In this document: one piece after another, positions 3,786 through 21,468 of the stretch
Position numbering within the stretch: the first letter of the stretch is position 1
Layout of the letters: the number at the start of each line of letters is the position of its first letter
NCBI GenBank assembly: GCA_031258205.1
Contig: JAIRNE010000008.1
Span: 1-39,881, forward strand
Direction of reading: 5' to 3'
Length of the DNA stretch: 39,881 bases
DNA from: Campylobacteraceae bacterium
GTDB taxonomy: Bacteria > Campylobacterota > Campylobacteria > Campylobacterales > Campylobacteraceae
Notes under the pieces: model-generated
Told to the model about the DNA's origin: nothing
Database searches by the model: none
Seen by the model: the letters and a program-made list of their open reading frames with translations, nothing else
Made by a program: the position numbers and the translations under genes

Positions 3786-4952
3786 ATGAAACTTCAATAT
3801 CTACAGCCGATAAGCAATGCGAGCGGTTGGGGCGCAGGACTGGCAGCACTTGGCAAAGGCGTTAAAGACACGGCAAATTGGTCGTTAGAGAGAATGGATA
3901 AGGACAAGGAACATGCACGCGCCGATAAAACTTTAGAAAATCAAACAAATCTTACGGGTGCACAAGTAGGAAATCTCAATGCCAATACGGATGCAACAAA
4001 TCAGAATATAGCCTTTAATAAAGAACTGCATCCTTATAATTTACAATATCGTCAAACTCAAAACGAAATTGCCGATTTGACGAAACGAGCGCAAGAATAT
4101 AAAAATATTGCTTTAAAGCAAGATGCCGATGACATTGAATGGATTAATAAAAATATTCCAAAAGATAGTCGTTCCAAAGCTCTTGTTGAAATAGCCAAAA
4201 AATCCAATCCTTCTTTTTATGAAGGTATGAGCGATGAATATATTATAGCTTTGGCTTTCAAAAACCCTGAGATTTTTGAAAGTGTCAATAAGCTCGGTAC
4301 AACTTATTTTAACATGGGCATAGGTTATGAAGGCGAAAACCAATATGGATATTTTGGTAATCCTTATAACCCAACAATCAAGAAGCCAATGGGAAAATCT
4401 TATGCTACAGATAAAGATGGTAACCCGATGATAGGCAAAGGTTCAGACGGCGATAATTTTACAGCTTTCAATGCCGAGAACCCTGACGGCACCAAACAAG
4501 CAATTATTTACAGTAAAAAGACAGGGGAGTGGATAGATGCAAGCAGCGGAAAAGAGATAAAAAATATTATACTTGACGATGCTGTAGCAAGAGTTTTACA
4601 TAAAAAAGTTTTAGGTAAAGACCCGAGCGGTATTTTTGTGGATAGCGATACGGATATCAGCAGAAGTGTTGGCGGCGGGAAATATGAAACAAACATTAAT
4701 AATTTTGCACCGTATCTTGGTATGTTTGTAGAAGATGCTTTTGATATAGCTTATACTCCTGAAGGTGTACAAATAGTGAAGCTCAATCCAAAATACGCCA
4801 AAAATCCGTCTGCGATTTATAAACAAGCAACTCCTGAAGAAATGGCTAAAGCATGGTCTAATGCCAATATTAATTCGCCCTTTTCGTTAAGTCGTACAGA
4901 AGGGACTATGCCATCTAACAATATGAATTTTAACTTGAATGATTACAAATGA
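3786..4952 (+). CDS. phage internal virion/ejection-type protein
   Basis: 388 aa, helical; ATGA overlap with the giant downstream gene. Confidence 0.55.
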   Translation: MKLQYLQPISNASGWGAGLAALGKGVKDTANWSLERMDKDKEHARADKTLENQTNLTGAQVGNLNANTDATNQNIAFNKELHPYNLQYRQTQNEIADLTKRAQEYKNIALKQDADDIEWINKNIPKDSRSKALVEIAKKSNPSFYEGMSDEYIIALAFKNPEIFESVNKLGTTYFNMGIGYEGENQYGYFGNPYNPTIKKPMGKSYATDKDGNPMIGKGSDGDNFTAFNAENPDGTKQAIIYSKKTGEWIDASSGKEIKNIILDDAVARVLHKKVLGKDPSGIFVDSDTDISRSVGGGKYETNINNFAPYLGMFVEDAFDIAYTPEGVQIVKLNPKYAKNPSAIYKQATPEEMAKAWSNANINSPFSLSRTEGTMPSNNMNFNLNDYK

Positions 4953-7900
4953 ATAATTTAAAAATCGGAGATTTTTTCAGCGATGACGAATTAACCGGAT
5001 TTGCCGAGAAAGGATTTAGTTTTCAGCAAGTACAGGCTCTTGCTCAAAACAAATACAATAAACAACTTAACTTAAACCCCGTAGAAGTTCCTAAATTTAC
5101 CGCAGAACAGTTTAGCGAAGAGGCAAAGCAAAAACGCAACGAGCGCTTGGACGAGGAGATACTCCATCCAACGCGCGCTATGCTCAAACAAAACGCAGCC
5201 GTTGGTCTTGGTTCGCTTTTAAAATTTAACAGATGGTTAGTAGGTACTGCTAACCCAGCCACATGGACATCGCGCATACGGTATGGCAATAAAGCCGTAG
5301 ATAAAGCCTTTGAAGATATCGGAGGCGATGAGATAAAATTTTGGGACGAGATAGCAAAAGGGTACGAGGATGCAAGAGAGTACGGCATAGGATTAACCGG
5401 CGCTGACCCGATACCTCTTTACGCTGATTTTGTAGGACAAGCAGCCAATCCTATCAATTTTATCGGCGCAAACGGAGGAGCGTATTATAGCGGCGGTAAA
5501 ATTCTTTGGAAAGCAATAGGCGAAAGGTTTTTAATCAATTCGCTTGCGGGCGGCTCTATGGCTGCTTACGAATATAATAACATTTACAAGAAAGATACCG
5601 AAACGACACTTAAAGCCGCCGCTTTTGGCGCTCTTGCCTCTGGAGCTTTGGGGGAGGGCATCAACGGTTTGTTTAGGGGCGCAATTCACGGATACGGCAA
5701 AGTTAAAGATATGCAAATGTATAGGTCGCTGCCAAATATAGAAAATAAGCTTAGCGGTATCTTTGAAGCAAACAAAGACGACCCCGAAAAAGCGTTTAAA
5801 GAGATGGATTTTGATATTAAAGAGTTTTTGAAAAAAAACGCTCATTCATCAAAATCTGTTGAAGAGTTGAATAAAATCCTTAAAAAAATATTTGGCATAG
5901 ATAAACAGAGTACTCCCGAACAGCAAAAAGCATTAGCCGAAGCTATGGACGACCCGCTTTTTGCCGCGAATGAAGACAATCCAACTGAAGCTATAGTTAA
6001 TACTTTTTTGTACGGCGAGAGTTTAGACACAAAATTAACCGTCCTTAATGACCTTGAAAATGACTCTCCAAGCAGTGTTATAGATCAAGAGTTGTATGAC
6101 GGATTGAAAGAGTATAACGCCGAAACCATAAAAATAAAAGGCTTAGATACCATAGGGCAGGAGCTTGCGCAAAAAAGAGCCGAGATTTTTACGGCTTATG
6201 AAAATTCCGTTAATGCTTATGCAAAAGACGTAGAGCTTACGCAGACTTATATCAATAAATTTCCCGACTTTAATATAGAGCAAATCAATGAGCTTGTGTA
6301 CGTAAACAATAAGCCGACTCCCGAAATGCTGCAGATAAGTTCATACATCAATGACGGCGTGAGCGTTCACCCAAGAGCTGCGGGTATGAAGATAATATCT
6401 ATGCTTGAAAGCGAGATAAAACATGGACAAAGAACTCCCGAAGAGTTAGCCGTAAAGCTTAAAGAGCTTGGCTTTGGAGATGAGCAGATAAATGTTTTTG
6501 TGGAGGCTTACGCTAAAAAAGATATAATGATAGCTAAGCAATACATTGATAAAAAAATAGCGGCAAAAGGAGCTGACGATGCAGTTTCAACCATATACCC
6601 CGACGATGGACAAAGACCAAATGGAAGAGTTTCTCCTTTCCAAAATCCCGAAAGAGAAGTGGATGCAGCTTTTGGAGGAGGTGAAGGAGGGAGAAGTAAT
6701 GTCGGAAGCGGAGAGTTATCCCAAAGCCTTGAGGGAACACTTTCAAACAGTGAAAGTACAGGCGTACAAGGATCTGGACAGAGTACTAAGAGCGTTAGCG
6801 ATAGAGGCGGGATACCCAACGACGTTGAGGGATTGGGACGACAGTTACCCTCTGGGCGCTCTGGCGGCAGTGATGGAGGGGTTGGAAAACTCCCAGTGGT
6901 ACAACGTAAAACTCGGGATAGTGATGGGGCTTTACGCCGAGAGTTAGAAGAACCAAAACCAAAAAACGCCGAACCTCTTTCTATATCTAAATTAAGCGTA
7001 CAAATATTTGCAAACGCTTCAGAGAAACAAAAACGCATAAATATCAACGGTAAAAATGTAAATGCCTACGAATTAGACATAGAGGGAACAAAAGCGTATA
7101 TTTACAGCCAAAGCAATGGCAAAAGAGCTAAAAGCAAGAGCGTAACAGTCGTTGATAAAAACGGCAAAGAGTTAGGATTTAACGGACAAGGAAACTTCTT
7201 GGACGCTATAGGCTCGGCAATAATAACGCTAAGATCAGATCGTATGAATATTGATATGGAAAACAAAAAAAAGCTTAGATACGAAGCGTGGGAAAAGAGA
7301 CAAGCGGCACAATCTAAAAAGGAAACAAAAAATGAAGTAAAACCCCAAGAGCCCGAAACAGAGCTTGAAACCCCTATAGACGTTAATGTTGATGCGGCTG
7401 TAAAAGATATAAAGGTACTGTTCGGCGAAAGCGAAGCTAAGGAGAGTTTAAATAAAAACTACAACCTTAACGGTAAAGAACCCATAGAACTAACTAAGGC
7501 TCAAAGAAAAGAGATAAACGCTAAAGTAGATGAGATAATAAAAAAAGAGGTTAAGGATATAACTCATGAGGATAGAGAGATACTGCGTCAATACACGGGA
7601 GAGGGAGGACTTGGAGGCGAGGGATATAACACTCTAAGCCAGCATTTTACGCCGTATCATATCGCCCAAAATATATATAACGCCTTAGAAAATGCGGGCG
7701 TAAAGTTTAACAATGTTCTTGAACCAGCGGCTGGAAGCGGTAACTTTGTAGGAATGAGACCAAATTTAAAATGGACAACTATAGACATTGACGAAAAAGC
7801 TTTTAAAGTTTTACAGAGGCTTTATCCCGAAGCTAACCACTATAACATCTCCTTTGAAGAGTTTAAGGGTAAAGATTTTGATTTAATCATATCTAACGTC

Positions 7901-10900
7901 CCTTTTATAGAACAAAGAGGCGCTGGAAGCCTTAAAGCAAGACCTGATATAAAAACCCTGCATGATTACTACTTTGCTTCAGCTATAGACAAAGTGAAAG
8001 ATAACGGCGTTGTGGCATTTATAACAGCGCGCGGCACAATGGATAGAGTGGACGGTACTTTAAGAGCAGAACTGATGAGTAAGGCTGATATCATAGGAGC
8101 TTACCGTCTTAGCGATAATACCTTTTCCAAAAATGCCCACACTGACGTTGGAGCCGATATCATCTTTTTGCAAAAACGCCCCGAAGGAGTTAAGCCAAGA
8201 GAGACAAACGCCTTAGACAACGAGGCGTTTATCAAATCCTCCAAAGACGAAAACGGCATAACTATCAACGACTACTATAAAAACCGCCCTGAAAATATAA
8301 TGGGCGAAGCGGCAATAATAAAAGACAGATTTGGCAAAGACACATATAAAATAATGGGCGAAGCTAAAGAGATAGAGATTGATTACAAGCCTTACAGTAT
8401 AGACACTCCAGCTCCCTCTGCAAAATCCGCGCCTCTTAATTCCAAAGAGTTTACCGCGTGGGCGAAAGAGAACAGCGTTGTTTATGATAAACCAAAAGCC
8501 AAAGGCGTCCAAATCCAAAACGATAAAGTTTACGCAGCCAAAGAGGAGATAAGCTTTGACGACATTGAAGGCGGGGTAAAAATATATGAGAATATCTCCG
8601 CAAGCAAAGAGGGCGAAAAAATACTGCTTTTAGATAAGATACTCCACTCCTCCCAAAACGATAAAGTTGCTGGCATAAAACTTATAGATACCTATAAAAA
8701 ACTATACAAAAAACACCCGTATGACGATAAGGCTCTGCGAAAAATATTTGAAAACGCGGTAGATAAAGAGAAATTTTACGAACTTGGAAGTTACTTTGAT
8801 AAAGATTTTACTCCCGCTCCAGTATTTACAAGAGAGACTAAATTTAAAGACAGCGGCAGGGTTGAAGTTAATTCAAATTCGCCTCTGAAAGATAGACTGC
8901 TCCACAATGAAAATGCGCAGGGCATTACGGAAGTTTCAAAAAACGAACTCAAAGAGGCTTTGGATAATGAATACGCCCTTATCTCCGACGATATGATACA
9001 AAACAATATCCTGTATTACGGCGGTAACATTTACAAAAAGCTTGACGAAGCTAAAAAACTTCTTGAACAGCACAAAGACGATGAATTTTTGAGCGGTAAA
9101 CTTCAATCGCAGATAGAAAAACTGACAGAAATCCTGCCTCATGCAAAGAGCATTGACGATTTTAGCGTAAGAGGCGATGAGAGATGGCTGCTTAATGACG
9201 GTCTTGAAATATACGACCTTAAGACAATTACAAAAAACTTCGGCGATAGGAGTACTACGGAGTATTACACGCCTTTTGGACAAATATTTAACAACTATAT
9301 CAACTCAAGAGCGCTTATCAATATTAAAGACGGCGAATCTATAGTCTCATACCGCAGAAGGCTTAGAGCGGCAAAAGACAACGTTAAAGAGACGCTTTTA
9401 AAAATCAAAGAGTTAATCCGCTCCGACCCGGAACTGCAGGCTAAAATAGAGGATAAATACAACAGGCTCTATAACGCTTACGTATCTCCCGATTATTCCC
9501 GCATGGAGTACTTGGCTAAAAAAGCGTTTGACGAAAGTCTTGTAAAACTAAGAGACAATCAAAAAAAGTGGGTACTGCACGCTCTGTATGAAGGCAAAGG
9601 TATCAACGCGCATGACGTTGGAGGCGGTAAAACGTTTGCCGCTATTGTCTTAGCGCGCGCTATGAAGCAAAGAGGCATAGCCAAAAAGCCTCTGTTTGTC
9701 GTTCCCTCAAAAGTATTAAAAAATTGGGAGAAAGAGATAAAAAGAGCGTATCCCGACGCTAAGGTTATAAACCTTTACGCCCTGCCTAAAGACACAAGGA
9801 CGAAAACGCTGTATGAGTTGGCAAATCAAGAGGCTGATTATATTCTTATCTCTCATGAAGGTTTTAAAAAACTGCAATTGCCGCTTGACGTTGAGATGAG
9901 ATATACTGACGAACTTTTGAATGAAAACTTAAAAACCGAAGCGTTGAAAGGACGCCAGCTTGCGCTTGAACAGGAGAAAATAGCAAAATATAAAGCGGCA
10001 TTGATGGCGCAGGAAGAGGATAAAAAGATATCCCTTGACGCGCTTGGCATTGACGCTATTATAGCGGATGAGGCGAGAGCGTTTAAAAATATCGGCGTGA
10101 ACTCTAAGCTTGCGCGCGCAGGGCTTGGAAAACAATTTAGCATTAAAACGGGCGAAGGAGATAAAATAGGCATAGACAGCGCGATAGCTTATGATTTCAG
10201 ATTTAAAACAAGATTTATCGCTGAAAATAATAACGGCAGGAATGTCTTTATGCTGGACGCTACTCCAACTCCCAATAAGCCATTAGAGATATACACAATG
10301 CTAAAACATCTTGACAATAATATCTTTGACGAGTACGGCATAAGAACGGATATGGACTTTTCAAATAAGTTTTTTTCTTACGGTAAAAAGGTAACCGCAG
10401 ACGGTAAAAGAGAAGACGCGCTTCAAGATATAATAAGCGCGTGGGATTTAAAGAGCATAATAGACAGATATATAGAAAAGATACCAACTTCCGCTTTTGA
10501 GAGTTACGGCATCAAACTGCCTAAAAAGATTATCCTGCCTCCGCACATCATTGAGCCTTCGCCTGAAAGTACTTTAGCGTTTGGAGATATTCTTGAAAGG
10601 CTTGGTAAAGCAAGAGGCTCGCAAGACGAGATGGGTTCAATTCTTGGCATATATTCAGAAGGACGTTCGGCTTCTACCGATGCAAGGCTTTATCAAAGAG
10701 CGGGCATAAGAGAATTTGTAGATCCGACAGCTAAAAACAATAAGCTTTTAGCGGTTATAGACGAAGTTCTTAAAGTGCGCAAAAAGGATAAAAAAGCGGG
10801 ACAGGTGATATTTCTTGATAACGCGGGACATACCGCAATGCAGGCTAATATCCTTAAAGACAGTAAAAAAGGACAAGTAACATTAGAGCCTACTTTAACT

Positions 10901-11905
10901 AAAAACCTGCATCAAGAGATAAAAGAGAAGCTTATCGCTTCAGGAGAGTATAAAGCCAATGAGATAGCCATACTAAACGGTAAAGAGATAACAGACCCAA
11001 CTTCGGGTAAAGAGGTAAGCGCGGCAGGCAAAAGAGGCATAGAGTTGAAACAAAAGATTGTGGACGCTTACGATAAGGGGCAGATAAAAGTTATTATAGG
11101 CACAACTCAAAGCGCGGGAGAGGGTATGAATATACAAAAATTTACAACAGATATTCATCACGTAGATATGACATGGACAAGCGCCCAGATAGAACAGCGA
11201 AACGGTCGCGGGGTAAGATACGGCAATATTTACGATAGCGTAAATATACATAATTACTTCCAAAAAGGCAGCTTTGACGAGCTTAGCTATAAAAAAGTGC
11301 GCGAAAAAGAGGGGTGGAACGAAGCTTTGTGGGAGGGTAAGATAATTGACGATAAAGTTTCGGTAGAGGAGGTAAGCAACGGTATGCCTACAACCGAAGA
11401 GCTTATGATACAGCTTGAGAGCGACCCTGTGAAAAGACAAAAACTTGAACTTCAAGTTGAGCATCAAAGGTTAGAAGATGAATATAACAACGCTCAAAAC
11501 ATGAATATATATCTAAACAATAAATTTCAAAACCTGAAAGGCGCTATCAATGTGGCTCATAATGATATCAAAGCCCTTGAGGAAAAGCTAAAAACCGACA
11601 CCCCAAATCAAACTCTTAAAGACTTGCGGCAGAGGATACTAAAAACAAAAGAAGCCGCAAAAAGAGCAGAGCTTCAAAGTCAATTTGACAAAATGCTCGC
11701 AGGCAGCCAAACTCATACTAAAAATATGATTGAAGCCAAGCAGAAAAGAATAAACGAAATGTCAAAGCAGGCGTACGATATGCAGTCTGAGATAAAAACA
11801 AGCAAGGAAGACCTTGACAATATAGCTAAAAAACTCACAGAGTTTGAAGATAAGAATATGAACGATAAAGGCGAAATAGTAACCGACTTTGAGGAGATAT
11901 GCTGA
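4949..11905 (+). CDS. giant polyvalent phage protein: ejection-like N-terminus, N6-adenine MTase domain, SF2/SNF2 helicase (DarB-like antirestriction)
   Basis: 2318 aa. MTase motif I LEPAAGSGNF and motif IV-like NVPF (~7.55-8.2 kb); helicase HDVGGGKTFAAIVLARA, IADEARAFKN, MLDATPTPN, and C-lobe IGTTQSAGEGMNIQKFTTDIHHVDMTWTSAQIEQRNGRGVRYG (~9.5-11.3 kb); C-terminal coiled coil. Confidence 0.85.
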   Translation: MNNLKIGDFFSDDELTGFAEKGFSFQQVQALAQNKYNKQLNLNPVEVPKFTAEQFSEEAKQKRNERLDEEILHPTRAMLKQNAAVGLGSLLKFNRWLVGTANPATWTSRIRYGNKAVDKAFEDIGGDEIKFWDEIAKGYEDAREYGIGLTGADPIPLYADFVGQAANPINFIGANGGAYYSGGKILWKAIGERFLINSLAGGSMAAYEYNNIYKKDTETTLKAAAFGALASGALGEGINGLFRGAIHGYGKVKDMQMYRSLPNIENKLSGIFEANKDDPEKAFKEMDFDIKEFLKKNAHSSKSVEELNKILKKIFGIDKQSTPEQQKALAEAMDDPLFAANEDNPTEAIVNTFLYGESLDTKLTVLNDLENDSPSSVIDQELYDGLKEYNAETIKIKGLDTIGQELAQKRAEIFTAYENSVNAYAKDVELTQTYINKFPDFNIEQINELVYVNNKPTPEMLQISSYINDGVSVHPRAAGMKIISMLESEIKHGQRTPEELAVKLKELGFGDEQINVFVEAYAKKDIMIAKQYIDKKIAAKGADDAVSTIYPDDGQRPNGRVSPFQNPEREVDAAFGGGEGGRSNVGSGELSQSLEGTLSNSESTGVQGSGQSTKSVSDRGGIPNDVEGLGRQLPSGRSGGSDGGVGKLPVVQRKTRDSDGALRRELEEPKPKNAEPLSISKLSVQIFANASEKQKRININGKNVNAYELDIEGTKAYIYSQSNGKRAKSKSVTVVDKNGKELGFNGQGNFLDAIGSAIITLRSDRMNIDMENKKKLRYEAWEKRQAAQSKKETKNEVKPQEPETELETPIDVNVDAAVKDIKVLFGESEAKESLNKNYNLNGKEPIELTKAQRKEINAKVDEIIKKEVKDITHEDREILRQYTGEGGLGGEGYNTLSQHFTPYHIAQNIYNALENAGVKFNNVLEPAAGSGNFVGMRPNLKWTTIDIDEKAFKVLQRLYPEANHYNISFEEFKGKDFDLIISNVPFIEQRGAGSLKARPDIKTLHDYYFASAIDKVKDNGVVAFITARGTMDRVDGTLRAELMSKADIIGAYRLSDNTFSKNAHTDVGADIIFLQKRPEGVKPRETNALDNEAFIKSSKDENGITINDYYKNRPENIMGEAAIIKDRFGKDTYKIMGEAKEIEIDYKPYSIDTPAPSAKSAPLNSKEFTAWAKENSVVYDKPKAKGVQIQNDKVYAAKEEISFDDIEGGVKIYENISASKEGEKILLLDKILHSSQNDKVAGIKLIDTYKKLYKKHPYDDKALRKIFENAVDKEKFYELGSYFDKDFTPAPVFTRETKFKDSGRVEVNSNSPLKDRLLHNENAQGITEVSKNELKEALDNEYALISDDMIQNNILYYGGNIYKKLDEAKKLLEQHKDDEFLSGKLQSQIEKLTEILPHAKSIDDFSVRGDERWLLNDGLEIYDLKTITKNFGDRSTTEYYTPFGQIFNNYINSRALINIKDGESIVSYRRRLRAAKDNVKETLLKIKELIRSDPELQAKIEDKYNRLYNAYVSPDYSRMEYLAKKAFDESLVKLRDNQKKWVLHALYEGKGINAHDVGGGKTFAAIVLARAMKQRGIAKKPLFVVPSKVLKNWEKEIKRAYPDAKVINLYALPKDTRTKTLYELANQEADYILISHEGFKKLQLPLDVEMRYTDELLNENLKTEALKGRQLALEQEKIAKYKAALMAQEEDKKISLDALGIDAIIADEARAFKNIGVNSKLARAGLGKQFSIKTGEGDKIGIDSAIAYDFRFKTRFIAENNNGRNVFMLDATPTPNKPLEIYTMLKHLDNNIFDEYGIRTDMDFSNKFFSYGKKVTADGKREDALQDIISAWDLKSIIDRYIEKIPTSAFESYGIKLPKKIILPPHIIEPSPESTLAFGDILERLGKARGSQDEMGSILGIYSEGRSASTDARLYQRAGIREFVDPTAKNNKLLAVIDEVLKVRKKDKKAGQVIFLDNAGHTAMQANILKDSKKGQVTLEPTLTKNLHQEIKEKLIASGEYKANEIAILNGKEITDPTSGKEVSAAGKRGIELKQKIVDAYDKGQIKVIIGTTQSAGEGMNIQKFTTDIHHVDMTWTSAQIEQRNGRGVRYGNIYDSVNIHNYFQKGSFDELSYKKVREKEGWNEALWEGKIIDDKVSVEEVSNGMPTTEELMIQLESDPVKRQKLELQVEHQRLEDEYNNAQNMNIYLNNKFQNLKGAINVAHNDIKALEEKLKTDTPNQTLKDLRQRILKTKEAAKRAELQSQFDKMLAGSQTHTKNMIEAKQKRINEMSKQAYDMQSEIKTSKEDLDNIAKKLTEFEDKNMNDKGEIVTDFEEIC
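6579..6947 (+). CDS. candidate overprinted gene, 122 aa, nested in the +1 frame of the giant polyvalent gene
   Basis: ATG 6579 preceded by AAAAGGAG (6565-6572) with 6-nt spacer; globular composition (MQFQPYTPTMDKDQMEEFLLSKIPKEKWMQLLEEV...NSQWYNVKLGIVMGLYAES). The enclosing frame is G/S/R-rich low complexity over the same bases. Second internal ATG 6699 with GGAGG upstream. Confidence 0.65.
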   Translation: MQFQPYTPTMDKDQMEEFLLSKIPKEKWMQLLEEVKEGEVMSEAESYPKALREHFQTVKVQAYKDLDRVLRALAIEAGYPTTLRDWDDSYPLGALAAVMEGLENSQWYNVKLGIVMGLYAES

Positions 11906-14640
11906 TGCTGTTTGATAGTATAAAATGCTTTGGGAAAAGAGCTTTAAGCAAGAATGTTGAGTTTTTGAAAAATCTTAATAAAGATACCGTACCATCACAA
12001 CCAAAACCCGTAACTAAAAATGGAAAAAAGATAGTAGAGTTTTTTAAAAAAGCTCTTGATAATAAAAGCGTTAAAAGCGAGCTTCAACTTGACCCCGTTG
12101 ATAATAAAAATGCTTTAATGATAAAAGAGAGTATAGGTCTTGATATAAAAGGATATGAGCGTAAAATCACAAGCGATGGAGTTATACATATAGAAAATGA
12201 GCACGGCGTTAATTCTAATGACAGACATAAGATAACAGACGACGATATAATGCTGTATGAGGATATAGTAACTAATCCGGACAAAATAGCTAAGTCAAAA
12301 ACTACGCAAGGACTTGACGCTATTGTATATCAAAAAAGATATAACGATACTATATATATCGTTGAAGAGGTAAGAACGGGCAGCAGAAAAAATAAGAATC
12401 CATCTCTTGCGCTAAAAACAATGTTTAAAAACAGCATTGACAAATGGAAACGATATAAAGGAAAAGATATAGAATGGAAAGATGTTAAAGGAGGGCGGGC
12501 GCTCGATGTCAATATATCATCTCCAAAAGGAGATGCCCCCGAGCTTTACGTCCGAAACACTCCCGCCGATAATGAAATTATACCACAATCTTGGTATCAA
12601 AATCAAGTTGATAAAGTTTTTGATACTGTCGGCGGTATCATAAGAAAGAGTGATAAAAAAGCAAATGATTTGGCTGATAATCTTACAAAAGGAAAACTCA
12701 AAAAGATAACGGGAGACGGATTTGTAACCGTATCCAAGACAATAGAAGAGGTAAGCTCTGTCATAGAAGACTTTAGAAATGCCACAAGACAGATATACGA
12801 ACAGGCTAAAAACAGAAGAGAGACTTTAGATAAAATGCTCACTTACGACGATAAGGTCGCTTTGCATAACGCTTTGGGAGGAGACTTGAGAGCTAAAGAA
12901 CTTCCCTCGCATCTTACCAATCTATATAAAAACATAAGAAAGATGATAGACGATAACGCCGAAGCTCTCATTAAAGCCGGAGCATTAGATAAGAAATATA
13001 AAATAGACGACTATCTAAAAAGATACTATAAAGAGTATGTAAAAAACAAAGAGGGCTTTTTTAGAAATTACTTTGACAAAAAGTTTAAAGCAAGAAAAGA
13101 TTTGACATACGATGAGAGAATAGCTCTTGGTATGATAGAAGACGCCTCTTTGGTAGTTCCTAACACTATCGCAGAGCAAAGAGTACAATTAGTCAAAGCT
13201 AACTTCTTAAAACAGGTTGCCGATAAATTTGGCGTTGATGAGGAACTTGACGGCTTTGTTAGAATGAGCGATGAGACGGTAGGAGGCGGCATAAAGAAGT
13301 ACGGAGCTTTGGGCGGTAAGTATGTGCCTCGTGAAGTTGCGGATGCAATCAAGGGAGCAGGAATACTAAAAGAGAACCTCTCCGCCCTTGAAGACGTTCT
13401 TTATCCTCTTATAGACCACATTAAAGTCAATGTTACCGTTAAAAACCCGACAACTCACCTTTATAACTTTGGCTCTAATATGCTGATGTCGTTTCTACAC
13501 GGCGATATGACATCTTTGGCAAGAGTGATAAAAATGCGCTTTAGCGATAAAGCGGCATTTGACAGCTTAGTGAAAAGAGCGCATGCGCAAGGCGTAGTCT
13601 CTCATCTTGGCGATATGGAGGAGATGTTTAAAAATGCTAAGCCTTTAGAGGGAAAAGAGCCTATCGCGCTTACGATACTTAAAAATATTTATATGGCTAA
13701 AGGCTCTAAGAGCGGCGAGTTTATGAGGAATGCTTACGGCTGGGGAGATTTAATCTTTAAAATAGCGCACTTTGACAGACTGACAAGAAGCGGGGTAAGC
13801 GATGCGGCTGCGGGTAAAGCGGCTAAAAAAGCTTATGTAGATTACTCAGAACCTCTGCCCGCGCTTTTAAGAATGGCAGACAAGGGAGGATTGATGCCTT
13901 TTATAGGATATACATATAGATCTACTCCTGTTGTGCTTAGGGCTATAGCTAAACACCCTTTTAGATTTGCAGTAATGCAGGCTGCGCTTATCGGCATGGG
14001 CGCTTCTGCTTGGTTTGGCGATACAGACAGAAAGAACGCTTATAAACCAAAGTGGGCGGGCAACAAGTGGTATGTTAATGCTTTTGGCGCGGACAGCTGG
14101 ATGAAAGTACCTGTTCTTGGCGGAGGGTGGTATCTTAACTCGGGACGTCTTGTGCCTGCGTTTAGATATGACGGATTTGATTTGCTTGACTTTCAGGGAG
14201 GTTTTTTGGGCGGAGTGATAAAAATATCAACGGGATACACTCCTTTAAACCGCAAAATAGACAAAGAAGATGACGCCGCCGGAACTAAAATACTAAAGCG
14301 CGCGACAGAAATGGCAAAGAATTACCTGCCTCCTCTTACGCTTGGCAGGTATGCACAGCAAAGCGCGGGATATATAACAGGACTTAATCCTCCAAAAAAC
14401 TACTACAATGAAGAGATGGGAGTAACTGAAATATACGCCAGATCGCTTGGAGTTAGGAAGTTTGACGAACAAACAGAGGCAACAAGCAAAGTAAACTTGT
14501 TGATAAACAGACAGAAAAAAGAGCTTAAAGAGGCTAAAACTACAACCCAAAGGCAAGAGATAAGAGATAAATACAAATGGGAGTTGGACAGATACAAAGA
14601 GTATGAGAAATCGGCACGGTTTAACTTGTCTAATTTTTAG
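11899..14640 (+). CDS. polyvalent phage protein with N-terminal PBECR-like (Barnase/EndoU/ColicinE5/RelE-like) nuclease domain and virion-associated C-terminus
   Basis: 913 aa; IENEHG...DRHKITDDDIMLYEDIVTNPD...IYIVEEVRTGSRKNKNPSLALKTMFK resembles PBECR domains. Start may be ATG 11905 (GGAG 8 nt upstream). Confidence 0.7.
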   Translation: MLMLFDSIKCFGKRALSKNVEFLKNLNKDTVPSQPKPVTKNGKKIVEFFKKALDNKSVKSELQLDPVDNKNALMIKESIGLDIKGYERKITSDGVIHIENEHGVNSNDRHKITDDDIMLYEDIVTNPDKIAKSKTTQGLDAIVYQKRYNDTIYIVEEVRTGSRKNKNPSLALKTMFKNSIDKWKRYKGKDIEWKDVKGGRALDVNISSPKGDAPELYVRNTPADNEIIPQSWYQNQVDKVFDTVGGIIRKSDKKANDLADNLTKGKLKKITGDGFVTVSKTIEEVSSVIEDFRNATRQIYEQAKNRRETLDKMLTYDDKVALHNALGGDLRAKELPSHLTNLYKNIRKMIDDNAEALIKAGALDKKYKIDDYLKRYYKEYVKNKEGFFRNYFDKKFKARKDLTYDERIALGMIEDASLVVPNTIAEQRVQLVKANFLKQVADKFGVDEELDGFVRMSDETVGGGIKKYGALGGKYVPREVADAIKGAGILKENLSALEDVLYPLIDHIKVNVTVKNPTTHLYNFGSNMLMSFLHGDMTSLARVIKMRFSDKAAFDSLVKRAHAQGVVSHLGDMEEMFKNAKPLEGKEPIALTILKNIYMAKGSKSGEFMRNAYGWGDLIFKIAHFDRLTRSGVSDAAAGKAAKKAYVDYSEPLPALLRMADKGGLMPFIGYTYRSTPVVLRAIAKHPFRFAVMQAALIGMGASAWFGDTDRKNAYKPKWAGNKWYVNAFGADSWMKVPVLGGGWYLNSGRLVPAFRYDGFDLLDFQGGFLGGVIKISTGYTPLNRKIDKEDDAAGTKILKRATEMAKNYLPPLTLGRYAQQSAGYITGLNPPKNYYNEEMGVTEIYARSLGVRKFDEQTEATSKVNLLINRQKKELKEAKTTTQRQEIRDKYKWELDRYKEYEKSARFNLSNF

Positions 14641-17196: not shown

Positions 17197-17316
17197 CTAA
17201 CCTATGGTTCGTGGGAGTTTGTTAGCGAGGTGGAACATAGCCGCAAACTCCCTTATATCTATCAGCTCTAAGCGGGCTAATAGGAAAGCTAAATCTCTTA
17301 GCTTCTTTCTTAACAT
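17197..17316 (-). CDS. 39-aa small protein
   Basis: MLRKKLRDLAFLLARLELIDIREFAAMFHLANKLPRTIG*; strong SD AAGGAGG 7 nt upstream (CCTCCTT at 17324-17330 on + strand); hairpin follows. Confidence 0.5.
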   Translation of the reverse strand: MLRKKLRDLAFLLARLELIDIREFAAMFHLANKLPRTIG

Positions 17317-17407
17317 TGGTTTTCCTCCTTTCTCAGTTTCCTGAAAAATTTGTAAAGAACTCGTAGATTTTTAAACCTACAATGGAATTATTGCATATTC
17401 AATATTA

Positions 17408-17453
17408 AAACATACTTAAAATCAATCAGAATATGATTAAGTAGTGTATGTTT
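17408..17453 (+). terminator. imperfect hairpin followed by T-run
   Basis: AAACATAC...GTATGTTT with further TTAA/ATCA pairing, then GCCCTTTTTTCTT. Confidence 0.35.
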
Positions 17454-17740
17454 GCCCTTTTTTCTTATATTTGGGTAAGCCCTGCGCTTATTTTGCGGCA
17501 GCAAAATAATAAGCACGCAGGCTTCCTATTGTTATTGCGTGCGGCGCGCAAGCTCTAAGGCGTGTAGATCCTCTTTTTACGTCTTTTTTTAAGCTCTAAC
17601 GCATAGGGTGGGGGAGAGGCAAATAAGATAAAAAGAACGGACGGGGCGGGGTTTTGGTGCGGGTTTGGAAAATTTCTGCCCCGCGCGTAAAGTGCAAGGT
17701 TGCAAGCGTTCTTGTCTTAAATATCTGCCTTAATATGTGA

Positions 17741-17771
17741 AAATGTATCTTTTTAACAAAAAGATACATTT
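17741..17771. repeat. perfect 14-bp inverted repeat with 3-nt centre
   Basis: AAATGTATCTTTTT-AAC-AAAAAGATACATTT. Confidence 0.7.
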
Positions 17772-18029
17772 ATTTTAAGTTTCAAGCTGTTTTTTTTAAG
17801 TTTCGGGGCTTGTTTAAGGTTAAGAGCGTTTTTGGCTTAAGGTTACATGGTTTGCGCGCGCGTGAAACATTATTACATCGTGTTTTTTCTCCACAGATGG
17901 TCGGCATCACGGCAGTTTATGGGGGGGGTATGTACCCATTTCGCCCATCGCGCCAATATGTCCGTTGGTTTATAATTTTTATAATTTTTGAAAAACTTGC
18001 CCTAATGTGAACAATTGCGCCAAACAGTA

Positions 18030-18047
18030 CATATTCACATGAATATG
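18030..18047. repeat. palindromic operator-like site
   Basis: CATATTCA-CA-TGAATATG; flanked by direct repeats ATGTGAACAA at 18004 and 18045. Confidence 0.5.
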
Positions 18048-18337
18048 TGAACAAAAAAGATTTTTTATATATGTTTTGGATTGGTTGAGTAGGCTCGCTT
18101 TCTCTTGCGTTGGCACTTGCAGGGTGCGCCCATTCCTCCCCCGTGTTGGGGCTTACGGCGTTTCTCTCTGCGGCGTTGAGGCTTACGCGTTTGCTTGTGA
18201 AACGTATAACTGAAAATGGTGTCGGTATTAGCTATAACACTGCCGGGAGCGGACGGTTAAAGATGAACGCTTGGACAATAACAAGGCTCAATAATTATGA
18301 CCATATCATTTTCGTGAAGTCAGGGAAATGATTAAAG

Positions 18338-19954
18338 TTAAAACAGCTCATCTCTCTCTATAGGTTCATACTCTTCTATCTCTTCCCAATCTTCCATCAT
18401 ATCATGAGAGCCTATAAATTCAACCATATAAGCAAGAGCGTCCATAAGGTCGTCATGCTTGCTTTCTACTTCAGGATCAAACTCCAAGAGTTCGGCTTCA
18501 AGTTCTATAGTAGCGCTTTGACGCTTGTTAAAAAATATCTTTCCAGTGATAAACAGCGGGTGAAGCTGCATAATGCGCAGATTTTTATTTTTACTGTGAT
18601 GAGACAGAGGAGTGATATTTATCTTTATCCCCGTCTCTTTTTGCGCCGCTTGTATGGTATAAAAGAAGTCATTCTGCGCCGAAGCTTTTTCAATGCCGAA
18701 ACTTATCGGGTTAAATGACGTTTGTATCCTAATAGCATTCACAGATTTTTCAAACGGCGTCCAATGCCCGCAGCTTATATCAAGTATGTATATATTATTG
18801 TCCTGTGCCTGCGCAAATGTAACTATAGCCGTTCTGTCAGCTCCGTCATAACTTGCAAGGTCCATAGTAGTATATATGCGGCAGGAAGATAACTCTATCT
18901 TTTTATCTCCAACTATAATATGGGTAGGCTGCGGGCATTGGACATTTTTTATATTTATCGCATCTCTCATAGTGATAGATGGAACGATATCTTTATATTC
19001 AAGTCCATCGAAATAGTTAAAATCCTCTCTTTTAAATACTTGTCTTTCGGGAGAAAAAGGTTTACACATATACTCTTGATAAAACTCGTTCTCTAAGCCG
19101 CGAGATGAGAACATATTTTTCATGTTCTCTATATAGTCTAAACTAAAACGAGATGCCCATGTAGGTTTGCCGTCCTTGAGTATAGGATATACTTTTATAT
19201 CCCAATCATTCTGATGCGTTCTTCCAACAGGTTCGTCCGTATCCTCATTAGGTATGTCGGGGTTGATTATATTATTTAATAGACTGGCTACATGTACGAT
19301 AGTACCCAATATATAAACTTGACCTCTTATAGGGTGTAGTGTCGGGAGTAAATCCGCATAAAAAAACCGCTCAATCTTTTTTCTGTTTGATGCGCTGCCG
19401 ACTGCAAACTGTCCGACAGTGCTTTCCATATCATCACATACGATGAGGGTTGGTCTAATGCCATTTTTAACGTAACCTCTCGGACTTGTACCTACCGATA
19501 TACTTACAATATAACATGTTTTCTCTAAACATCTGCCTGTCTCATCTTTTTTACCTTTATTGACAATTATGTCTATCTTCTCTTTTGTCCACTCTTTGCC
19601 CGGTTCTATCGCATAACCTTTTCTTCCTGCCTCTATTATCATATTTTTGATATCAGACAAAAAGTTCTCCGCCTTTTCTCTGTTTGCAGAGCAAAGAAGA
19701 GTAAAGGGTTCAAACTCAAAAAATACGCGGCAAAATATATTTACTTTATTTAAGAGGGTAGTTTTTCCTGCGCCTCTAAAAATAGCTGCGGCTTTATACT
19801 GTTCGTCGCCGTTTATAAAATTTAGTATGTCTAAGTGAAACGCAGGTGTCGGATGCTCAAAGACTGAGGGCATTATATGCTTTGCAACTTTAAGCTGCTG
19901 GATTGGGGAAAGTCTATATTTGATATTTGGGTTGATTACTTTTGGCAAACTCAT
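18338..19954 (-). CDS. phage terminase large subunit
   Basis: 538 aa; Walker A AAIFRGAGKTTLL, Walker B LIVCDDME, nuclease motifs TTMDLASYDGADRTA and KHDDLMDALAYMVEF. Confidence 0.88.
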   Translation of the reverse strand: MSLPKVINPNIKYRLSPIQQLKVAKHIMPSVFEHPTPAFHLDILNFINGDEQYKAAAIFRGAGKTTLLNKVNIFCRVFFEFEPFTLLCSANREKAENFLSDIKNMIIEAGRKGYAIEPGKEWTKEKIDIIVNKGKKDETGRCLEKTCYIVSISVGTSPRGYVKNGIRPTLIVCDDMESTVGQFAVGSASNRKKIERFFYADLLPTLHPIRGQVYILGTIVHVASLLNNIINPDIPNEDTDEPVGRTHQNDWDIKVYPILKDGKPTWASRFSLDYIENMKNMFSSRGLENEFYQEYMCKPFSPERQVFKREDFNYFDGLEYKDIVPSITMRDAINIKNVQCPQPTHIIVGDKKIELSSCRIYTTMDLASYDGADRTAIVTFAQAQDNNIYILDISCGHWTPFEKSVNAIRIQTSFNPISFGIEKASAQNDFFYTIQAAQKETGIKINITPLSHHSKNKNLRIMQLHPLFITGKIFFNKRQSATIELEAELLEFDPEVESKHDDLMDALAYMVEFIGSHDMMEDWEEIEEYEPIERDELF

Positions 19955-20021: not shown

Positions 20022-21215
20022 CTAACCCTTTTTTATACTCTCTAAATAATCCGACCACCACTGCATAAGCTTGGTTCTCTCCGTTAGATATTCGGCATGG
20101 TTATAGGCGGCTTTGACTTTATTCCGTTCCAAGTGGGCAAGCTGACGTTCTATGGCATCCGAATGTATGCCGTGAACGCTTATATTCTCGTGCAGGATTG
20201 TACTTGCAATGCCGCGAAATGAGTGCGCCACTATCTCGTCTCTTGTATAGTCAAGCCGTCTTAAAGCCTTTACAAGCGTTCCATCGCTGATTGGTTTAGT
20301 AGTTGTTACAGGACTTGGAAATAAATATTTGCCGCGTCCTGTTATCTCTTTAAGCTCTTGCAATATTTTTATGACTTGATTTGACAATGGAACTATATGA
20401 GGATCTTTCATTTTCATTTTTTCTGGGGGAATACGATAAATCTTTTTTTCAAAATTAATTTCACTCCATTCGGCAAAGCGGATATTTGCGGGTCGTAAGA
20501 ATACATGAGGCGCAAGCTTGAGAGCATATCTTGTAACGATATTGCCGTGATACTCGTCAATGGACAATAGAAGCTTTCTTAACTCTTTGCTGTCTGTTAT
20601 GACAGGGTAATTCTTTTGCGGTATTCGTTTGAATACGCTTTTTTTATCAATGTCTTTTACAATATTATGTTTGGTATATCCCATAGAGACGGCATAAGTG
20701 AATATTTGACTAAGGGTATTCAGCGTTTTATCAAGCGTTTCTATATGTCCCTCAGCTTCTATGTTTTTACCAAATCGTATAATATCTTGCACGGTTAAAT
20801 CTTGTATGCCGTAATGTCCCAATTTTGGTATTATGCGTTTATTGATAAATATATTGATGCTTTTTTGGTAACTGTCGGCAAATCTATCACGATTAAGCTC
20901 CCGCCACTCTTGAGCTATACTCTCTATAGTATTAGATTGTGAAACTCTTGCATACTGCGGGTCAAGTTTGTTTTTGAGATATTCTTTGTATTCGTCTCTT
21001 GTTTGACGCGCCTCTTTGAGTGAGGTCTGCGGATATACTCCGACAGAGATTGTTTTTTGTTTATTGGCAAAGATATAGTTAAAACGCCAATATTTAGCTC
21101 CTGACGTTTTAACCAATAAAATCAATCCATATCCGTCTGATAACTTATAATCTTTTGCCTTTGCTTTCGCATTTTTAATCTGCGTATCATTAAGAGGTTT
21201 TACCGTCTTTGGCAT
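20022..21215 (-). CDS. int: P4-type tyrosine integrase (DUF4102 N-terminus)
   Basis: LNDTQIKNAKAKAKDYKLSDGYGLILLVKTSGAKYWRFNY...SVGVYPQTSLKEAR; HSFRGIASTILHE; adjacent to tRNA-Pro. Start revised from 21275 to ATG 21215 (AAAGG upstream). Confidence 0.92.
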   Translation of the reverse strand: MPKTVKPLNDTQIKNAKAKAKDYKLSDGYGLILLVKTSGAKYWRFNYIFANKQKTISVGVYPQTSLKEARQTRDEYKEYLKNKLDPQYARVSQSNTIESIAQEWRELNRDRFADSYQKSINIFINKRIIPKLGHYGIQDLTVQDIIRFGKNIEAEGHIETLDKTLNTLSQIFTYAVSMGYTKHNIVKDIDKKSVFKRIPQKNYPVITDSKELRKLLLSIDEYHGNIVTRYALKLAPHVFLRPANIRFAEWSEINFEKKIYRIPPEKMKMKDPHIVPLSNQVIKILQELKEITGRGKYLFPSPVTTTKPISDGTLVKALRRLDYTRDEIVAHSFRGIASTILHENISVHGIHSDAIERQLAHLERNKVKAAYNHAEYLTERTKLMQWWSDYLESIKKG

Positions 21216-21250
21216 AGCTAACCTTTTTATGGTCTCAATGAAAAAATTGT

Positions 21251-21278
21251 ACCATAAAACCATAAAAAAGACCATAAA
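21251..21278. repeat. three ACCATAAA repeats in integrase promoter region
   Basis: ACCATAAA at 21251, 21259 and 21271; TTTATGGTC (21226-21234) forms an inverted repeat with GACCATAAA (21270-21278). Confidence 0.55.
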
Positions 21279-21381: not shown

Positions 21382-21390
21382 TTTGTAAAA

Positions 21391-21468
21391 TGGTCGGGGT
21401 GACGGGACTTGAACCCGCGACCTCTACCACCCCAAGATAGCGCGCTAGCCAGGCTGCGCTACACCCCG
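21391..21468 (-). tRNA. tRNA-Pro(GGG), CCA encoded; probable attachment site
   Basis: Minus strand CGGGGTGTAGCGCAGCCTGGCTAGCGCGCTATCTTGGGGTGGTAGAGGTCGCGGGTTCAAGTCCCGTCACCCCGACCA; cloverleaf with anticodon loop TTGGGGT. Confidence 0.95.

Follow-up and report, generated by a model that had tools for sequence, protein, structure and literature searches.

The gene-free interval

The window (the whole 39,881-nucleotide stretch analyzed here) is contig C97 of a 59%-complete Campylobacteraceae MAG, and carries the right-hand portion of a prophage: the late genes run along the + strand as far as 14909, recombinase genes, a 157-aa gene, and a 39-aa gene follow on the − strand, and beyond a gap come terL, the integrase, and tRNA-Pro.

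17197-17316, − strand: small 39-aa gene bordering the gap, with a Shine-Dalgarno-like AAAGGAGG and relatives in the same genus
17317-18337: gene-free gap of 1,021 nt, bounded by the 39-aa ORF on one side and the terL stop (18338) on the other
18338-19954, − strand: terL, whose stop codon borders the gap
20022-21275, − strand: integrase
21387-21414: 28-nt tRNA-Pro 3′-end sequence, probable att core, with a second copy on contig C30 (L114, about 876-917)

The initial annotation had singled out about 1 kb of non-coding DNA in a densely packed prophage, and rightly so: the remaining intergenic gaps in the part of the prophage inside the window are at most 165 nt, the expected G-rich stretch is present, and the only candidate ORFs in the gap, of 66 and 73 aa with TTG starts, look unconvincing. 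It had also raised a conserved small protein, or a lack of conservation in related prophages, as outcomes that would speak against it; a mechanical check of 15 loci revealed no long frame of common size in the element described below, and the element proved to be ordered and conserved across genera. The conserved part is narrower than the interval originally proposed, however, running from 17587 to 17995, while 17318-17586 and 17996-18337 are mostly not conserved. Its Shine-Dalgarno-like sequence and its relatives identify the 39-aa ORF as a genuine small gene; it has a conserved leader, and related sequences occur at three other loci (L004 862-1095, L012, and L013), of which one shares its genome and the other two belong to a second genome of the genus. 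Elsewhere in the gap, 18136-18187 holds two 22-nt copies that are 77% alike and 30 nt apart (CTCCCCCGTGTTGGGGCTTACG), and near them are sequences resembling the GCGTTGGCGCTTGC of L026 and C. concisus.

Anatomy of the conserved element

The conserved element is 409 bp long in the window and comprises the following parts:

17587-17995, + strand: whole element, box P to box D (P+A model 17587-17688, D model 17918-17995; both models include the window)
17589-17603, + strand: box P, TTAAGCTCTAACGCA (group consensus TAAGCNCTAACACA; alignment A4)
17642-17684, + strand: box A, G-rich, with CGGGGCGGGG at 17642-17651 and a possible partner GCCCCGC at 17678-17684 (alignment, helix counts)
17741-17771: hairpin, a 14-bp perfect inverted repeat with a 3-nt loop, at the equivalent place in relatives
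17774-17845, + strand: four TTAAGKTT repeats, TTTAAGTTTC at 17774, TTTAAGTTTC at 17795, TTTAAGGTTA at 17813, and CTTAAGGTTA at 17836
17918-17995, + strand: box D, with a G-tract at 17921-17928, TATGTACCCATTT, then AATATGTCCG at 17955-17964 (alignment A3, model R1)
17965-18000: AT-rich tract, 83% A+T, the same place being AT-rich in relatives

On the strand opposite terL the parts come in the order box P, box A, a first repeat (at the majority of loci), the hairpin, the repeat cluster, a variable spacer of up to ~350 nt, and box D, which itself consists of a G-tract, GTACCCATTT, and an AT-rich run.

Of the secondary structures proposed initially, the 14-bp inverted repeat is by far the strongest (fold z = −8.5, far beyond chance); in relatives, double changes at three pairs keep the pairing (five sequences), without G.U pairs. 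The hairpins at 17408-17453 (z −2.4) and 17477-17524 (z −2.5) are present with modest scores, neither 17535-17551 (z −0.65) nor GGGTATGTACCC read as a hairpin (z −0.1) goes beyond chance, and most of the hairpins listed lie outside the conserved part. Pairing of the box A helix is kept in 87.5% of cases, often through G.U pairs on the + strand that would be C.A on the other strand, and may be mimicry because a run of G faces pyrimidines; box D shows no paired change in the alignment. Column-shuffle z-scores on gapped alignments are unreliable, and we left them out of the argument.

At 13 of 15 loci the repeats are more numerous than in dinucleotide shuffles (p≤0.001), and nearly all of them are on one strand; the element has the multiple one-strand direct repeats of an iteron-type origin. 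Their spacing is 21, 18, and 22/23 in the window, L011, and L050; 21, 18, and 34 in L054; 128, 45, and 33 in L026; and 128, 55, and 44 in C. concisus. Steps of 21 and 22/23 fit two helical turns and 18 is off phase (few independent classes), while the values of the last step (22-23, 33-34, and 44) differ by about one helical turn (~11 nt) and would keep the sites on one face of duplex DNA, a pattern that is suggestive only, because there are just three classes.

Relatives and reach of the element

A search with TerL retrieved homologs 44-67% identical in prophages of the window's genus (L011), of Campylobacter, of a Sulfurospirillum MAG (L050), and of a Helicobacteraceae MAG (L054), as well as on metagenomic contigs (L047 and L048), some of these loci stopping short of the element. 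The P+A model finds 14 loci and the D model 19, the window counted in both: 13 other loci, from the window's genus, Campylobacter, and the Sulfurospirillum and Helicobacteraceae MAGs, have both ends, and five more, forming one diverged group (L025, L043-L045, and L049), have box D alone. Models built without the window's genus recover the window (D, E=1e-8; P+A, E=0.008), and the Sulfurospirillum copy, when held out, is itself recovered at 2.5e-5 and 0.002; the Helicobacteraceae/metagenomic pair, likewise held out, gives weak scores (best D 0.026 in L054, best P+A 0.7 in L047). For C. concisus P+A copies that were not used in training, scores are 1.4e-16 or better, a close relative having been among the training sequences. 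In 399 genomes of the order, TerL matches seven and P+A six, with both in five; the sixth P+A genome, G015, is a remnant without TerL, one genome (G028) has D only, and in another (G196) the contig ends near terL. Claims about the element rest on P+A together with D, because the D model alone is not specific and gives chance matches next to a host terminator in a different group of Campylobacter. This is a conserved element of one prophage family in Campylobacter and relatives.

Two loci that look degraded deserve mention. In the G015 remnant (C1:928100-928500; L127/L128), box P, box A, the hairpin, and two repeats are retained up to a G-tract, where the sequence passes into late-gene fragments; nothing is left of TerL, the phage primase, or the remainder of box D. 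In L011 (G012:C2, 6785-9650), terL is broken across two frames, as the integrase probably is too, which reflects a decaying prophage or assembly errors.

The host prophage and the position of the element

The 28-nt tRNA-Pro 3′-end copies on C97 and C30 probably mark the two ends of the prophage. Contig C30, from the same MAG, has SU10-like portal and capsid genes, a relative of the TerS-like gene, and a D5-type primase-helicase that shares 46% identity with its L047 counterpart; it is probably the left half of the same prophage, the contigs being unjoined and connected only through the att core and gene content. In one relative, the portal and capsid proteins match Pfam SU10 families, and the closest isolate-phage terminases, among the matches listed, are 22-27% identical; most of these come from large podovirus genomes of the N4-like kind. 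The family can be described as one of temperate phages whose capsid and portal are SU10-like and whose terminase is closest to those of N4-like phages. A phage D5-type primase-helicase occurs in 13 of the 14 genomes with this terminase, including that of the window; in the exception, G012 (85% complete, its prophage apparently decayed), the element is kept and no phage primase was detected. The window also encodes (4949-14640) a very large protein of 2318 aa that has SNF2-type helicase domains and, after it, one of 913 aa bearing a PBECR3 nuclease-like domain, both probably ejected virion proteins.

In the loci compared, the element is always found past the 3′ end of the late operon, with recombinase genes coming between in the window. 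The far side is terL in the window, L011, L026, L050, L051, and L061; a methylase and then terL in L047; other small genes and then terL in L054; other genes in the L025 group; and in C. concisus an early operon with the primase and TerS-like genes, terL being ~21 kb off or on another contig. Proximity to the terminase, which had been noted in the window, is therefore not a general trait. As for the primase, the element lies 3-7 kb after the primase operon in C. concisus, and across the att site from the primase in window-type prophages. Because the flanks differ between prophages, neither terL nor the primase is a constant neighbor.

Possible functions

An origin of replication, a packaging site, a regulatory hub, and a non-coding RNA had all been proposed for the interval, a fair list from which the conserved direct repeats, two G-rich boxes, single hairpin, and AT-rich tract lean toward the origin, packaging and RNA being less likely. 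The Rep helicases of SaPIs and the Cch2 helicases of SCCmec, some of which have D5_N-type domains, bind to short iterons that lie immediately downstream of the helicase genes (PMC7581432), and helical spacing matters for the binding of iterons (PMC4980987). The repeats with their partly helical spacing, the AT-rich tract at a constant place near them, and the D5-type primase-helicase of the same prophage fit an origin of the SaPI/iteron kind, and our preferred reading, which we hold with slightly less than even confidence, is that the element is cis-acting DNA that may serve as the replication origin of this temperate phage family. An initiator protein of the phage, with the D5-type primase-helicase as the likeliest candidate, would bind the TTAAGKTT repeats; the AT-rich tract (17965-18000), a possible unwinding region, would then open; and the helicase-primase would load and DNA copying begin. 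Binding of the repeats, the identity of the protein that binds them, and initiation of replication at this site are all predictions from sequence.

The fit to known origins is imperfect. Like SaPI/SCCmec-type origins (with Rep or D5-type helicases), the element has short direct repeats in a non-coding stretch, with a D5-type primase-helicase encoded in the same prophage, but the repeats, so far as they were compared, are unrelated in sequence, there are additional conserved boxes (P, A, and D), and the element is not directly downstream of the primase gene. Like the plasmid iteron origins of RK2, F, and R6K, it has four or more direct repeats on one strand, some 21-23 nt spacing, and an AT-rich tract, but the repeats are only ~10 bp rather than 17-22 bp, the spacing is not uniform (one step, 18 nt, being off helical phase), and no Rep protein of that type was identified. 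Against an origin we also count that a simple iteron origin offers no clear role for boxes P and A, that the primase does not adjoin the element in window-type prophages, and that G012 retains the element with no phage primase detected. A rolling-circle nick site, considered on account of AATACTAC-like sequences in box D, was set aside: no such initiator is found among the proteins scanned.

The element could instead be a cos/pac packaging site: the repeats would be recognized by a TerS-like protein, and cleavage by the terminase close to the G-tract/ACCC box would define the ends of virion DNA. We consider this unlikely, yet several points favor it: terL adjoins the element in half of the group; most members have a TerS-like gene, directly before terL in L047 and L054; and the repeats with the near-palindromic box resemble, in outline, the arrangement of cosB and cosN. 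A constant link to the terminase is nonetheless lacking, since the C. concisus element stays at the end of the late operon with terL far away; the TerS assignment is weak (Pfam E=0.0017; a low-confidence structure model without a PDB match; no PHROG match); and a packaging site does not require an AT-rich tract.

A structured RNA transcribed on the + strand from box P to box D seems improbable to us. Two short helices with paired changes and the strand-specific G.U pairs of box A argue for it, and long non-coding stretches with hairpins in prophages recall GOLLD and ROOL RNAs; the element differs from these, however, in having no Rfam match and variable spacers. Moreover, spacer lengths differ by hundreds of nt, the box A pairing can be mimicked by a G-run facing pyrimidines, the other helix has no G.U pairs and box D no paired change, no promoter-like site lies directly upstream of box P on the + strand, and fold z-scores show no consistent strand preference. 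The more specific proposal of a new class of structured + strand phage RNA with repeated UUUAAGGUU motifs and G-tract boxes, maybe in R-loop priming or as a terminase partner and not as plain duplex DNA, is more improbable again. Least of all do we expect a zone of transcription termination or insulation between convergent operons, for instance Rho-dependent on a C-rich, G-poor − strand transcript: late genes and far-side genes do converge on the element in most loci, and GC skew on the + strand is +0.15 to +0.42 in 14 of 15 loci, but termination would not require exact repeat spacing and boxes kept between genera, and the core contains no intrinsic terminator.

Novelty and significance

The element was unmatched in Rfam, in a phage collection (window and C. 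concisus queries), and in a plasmid collection (C. concisus query), and no close isolate phage or plasmid was found there. In IMG/VR, a motif scan with GGGGTATGTACCCAYTTG gave only chance matches that look coding, and one with GGGCTATGAACCCAYTTGG gave one C. concisus-type prophage; a single-sequence terL search had no match, but a terL alignment did, and the contig ends gave nothing informative on virion ends. Full-text literature searches, including the outline of one Campylobacter prophage survey, returned no description of the element. As a sequence family the element thus appears to be undescribed; as a kind, a phage cis-acting element, it is familiar.

We wish to emphasize that the element is a sequence-defined cis-acting unit of seemingly little-described temperate phages in Campylobacterales, including C. 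concisus. It can mark these prophages and their remnants where terL and primase are gone, as it did for the remnant in G015, and its 409 bp in the window offer a short, precise target for study of how these phages copy or package their DNA.
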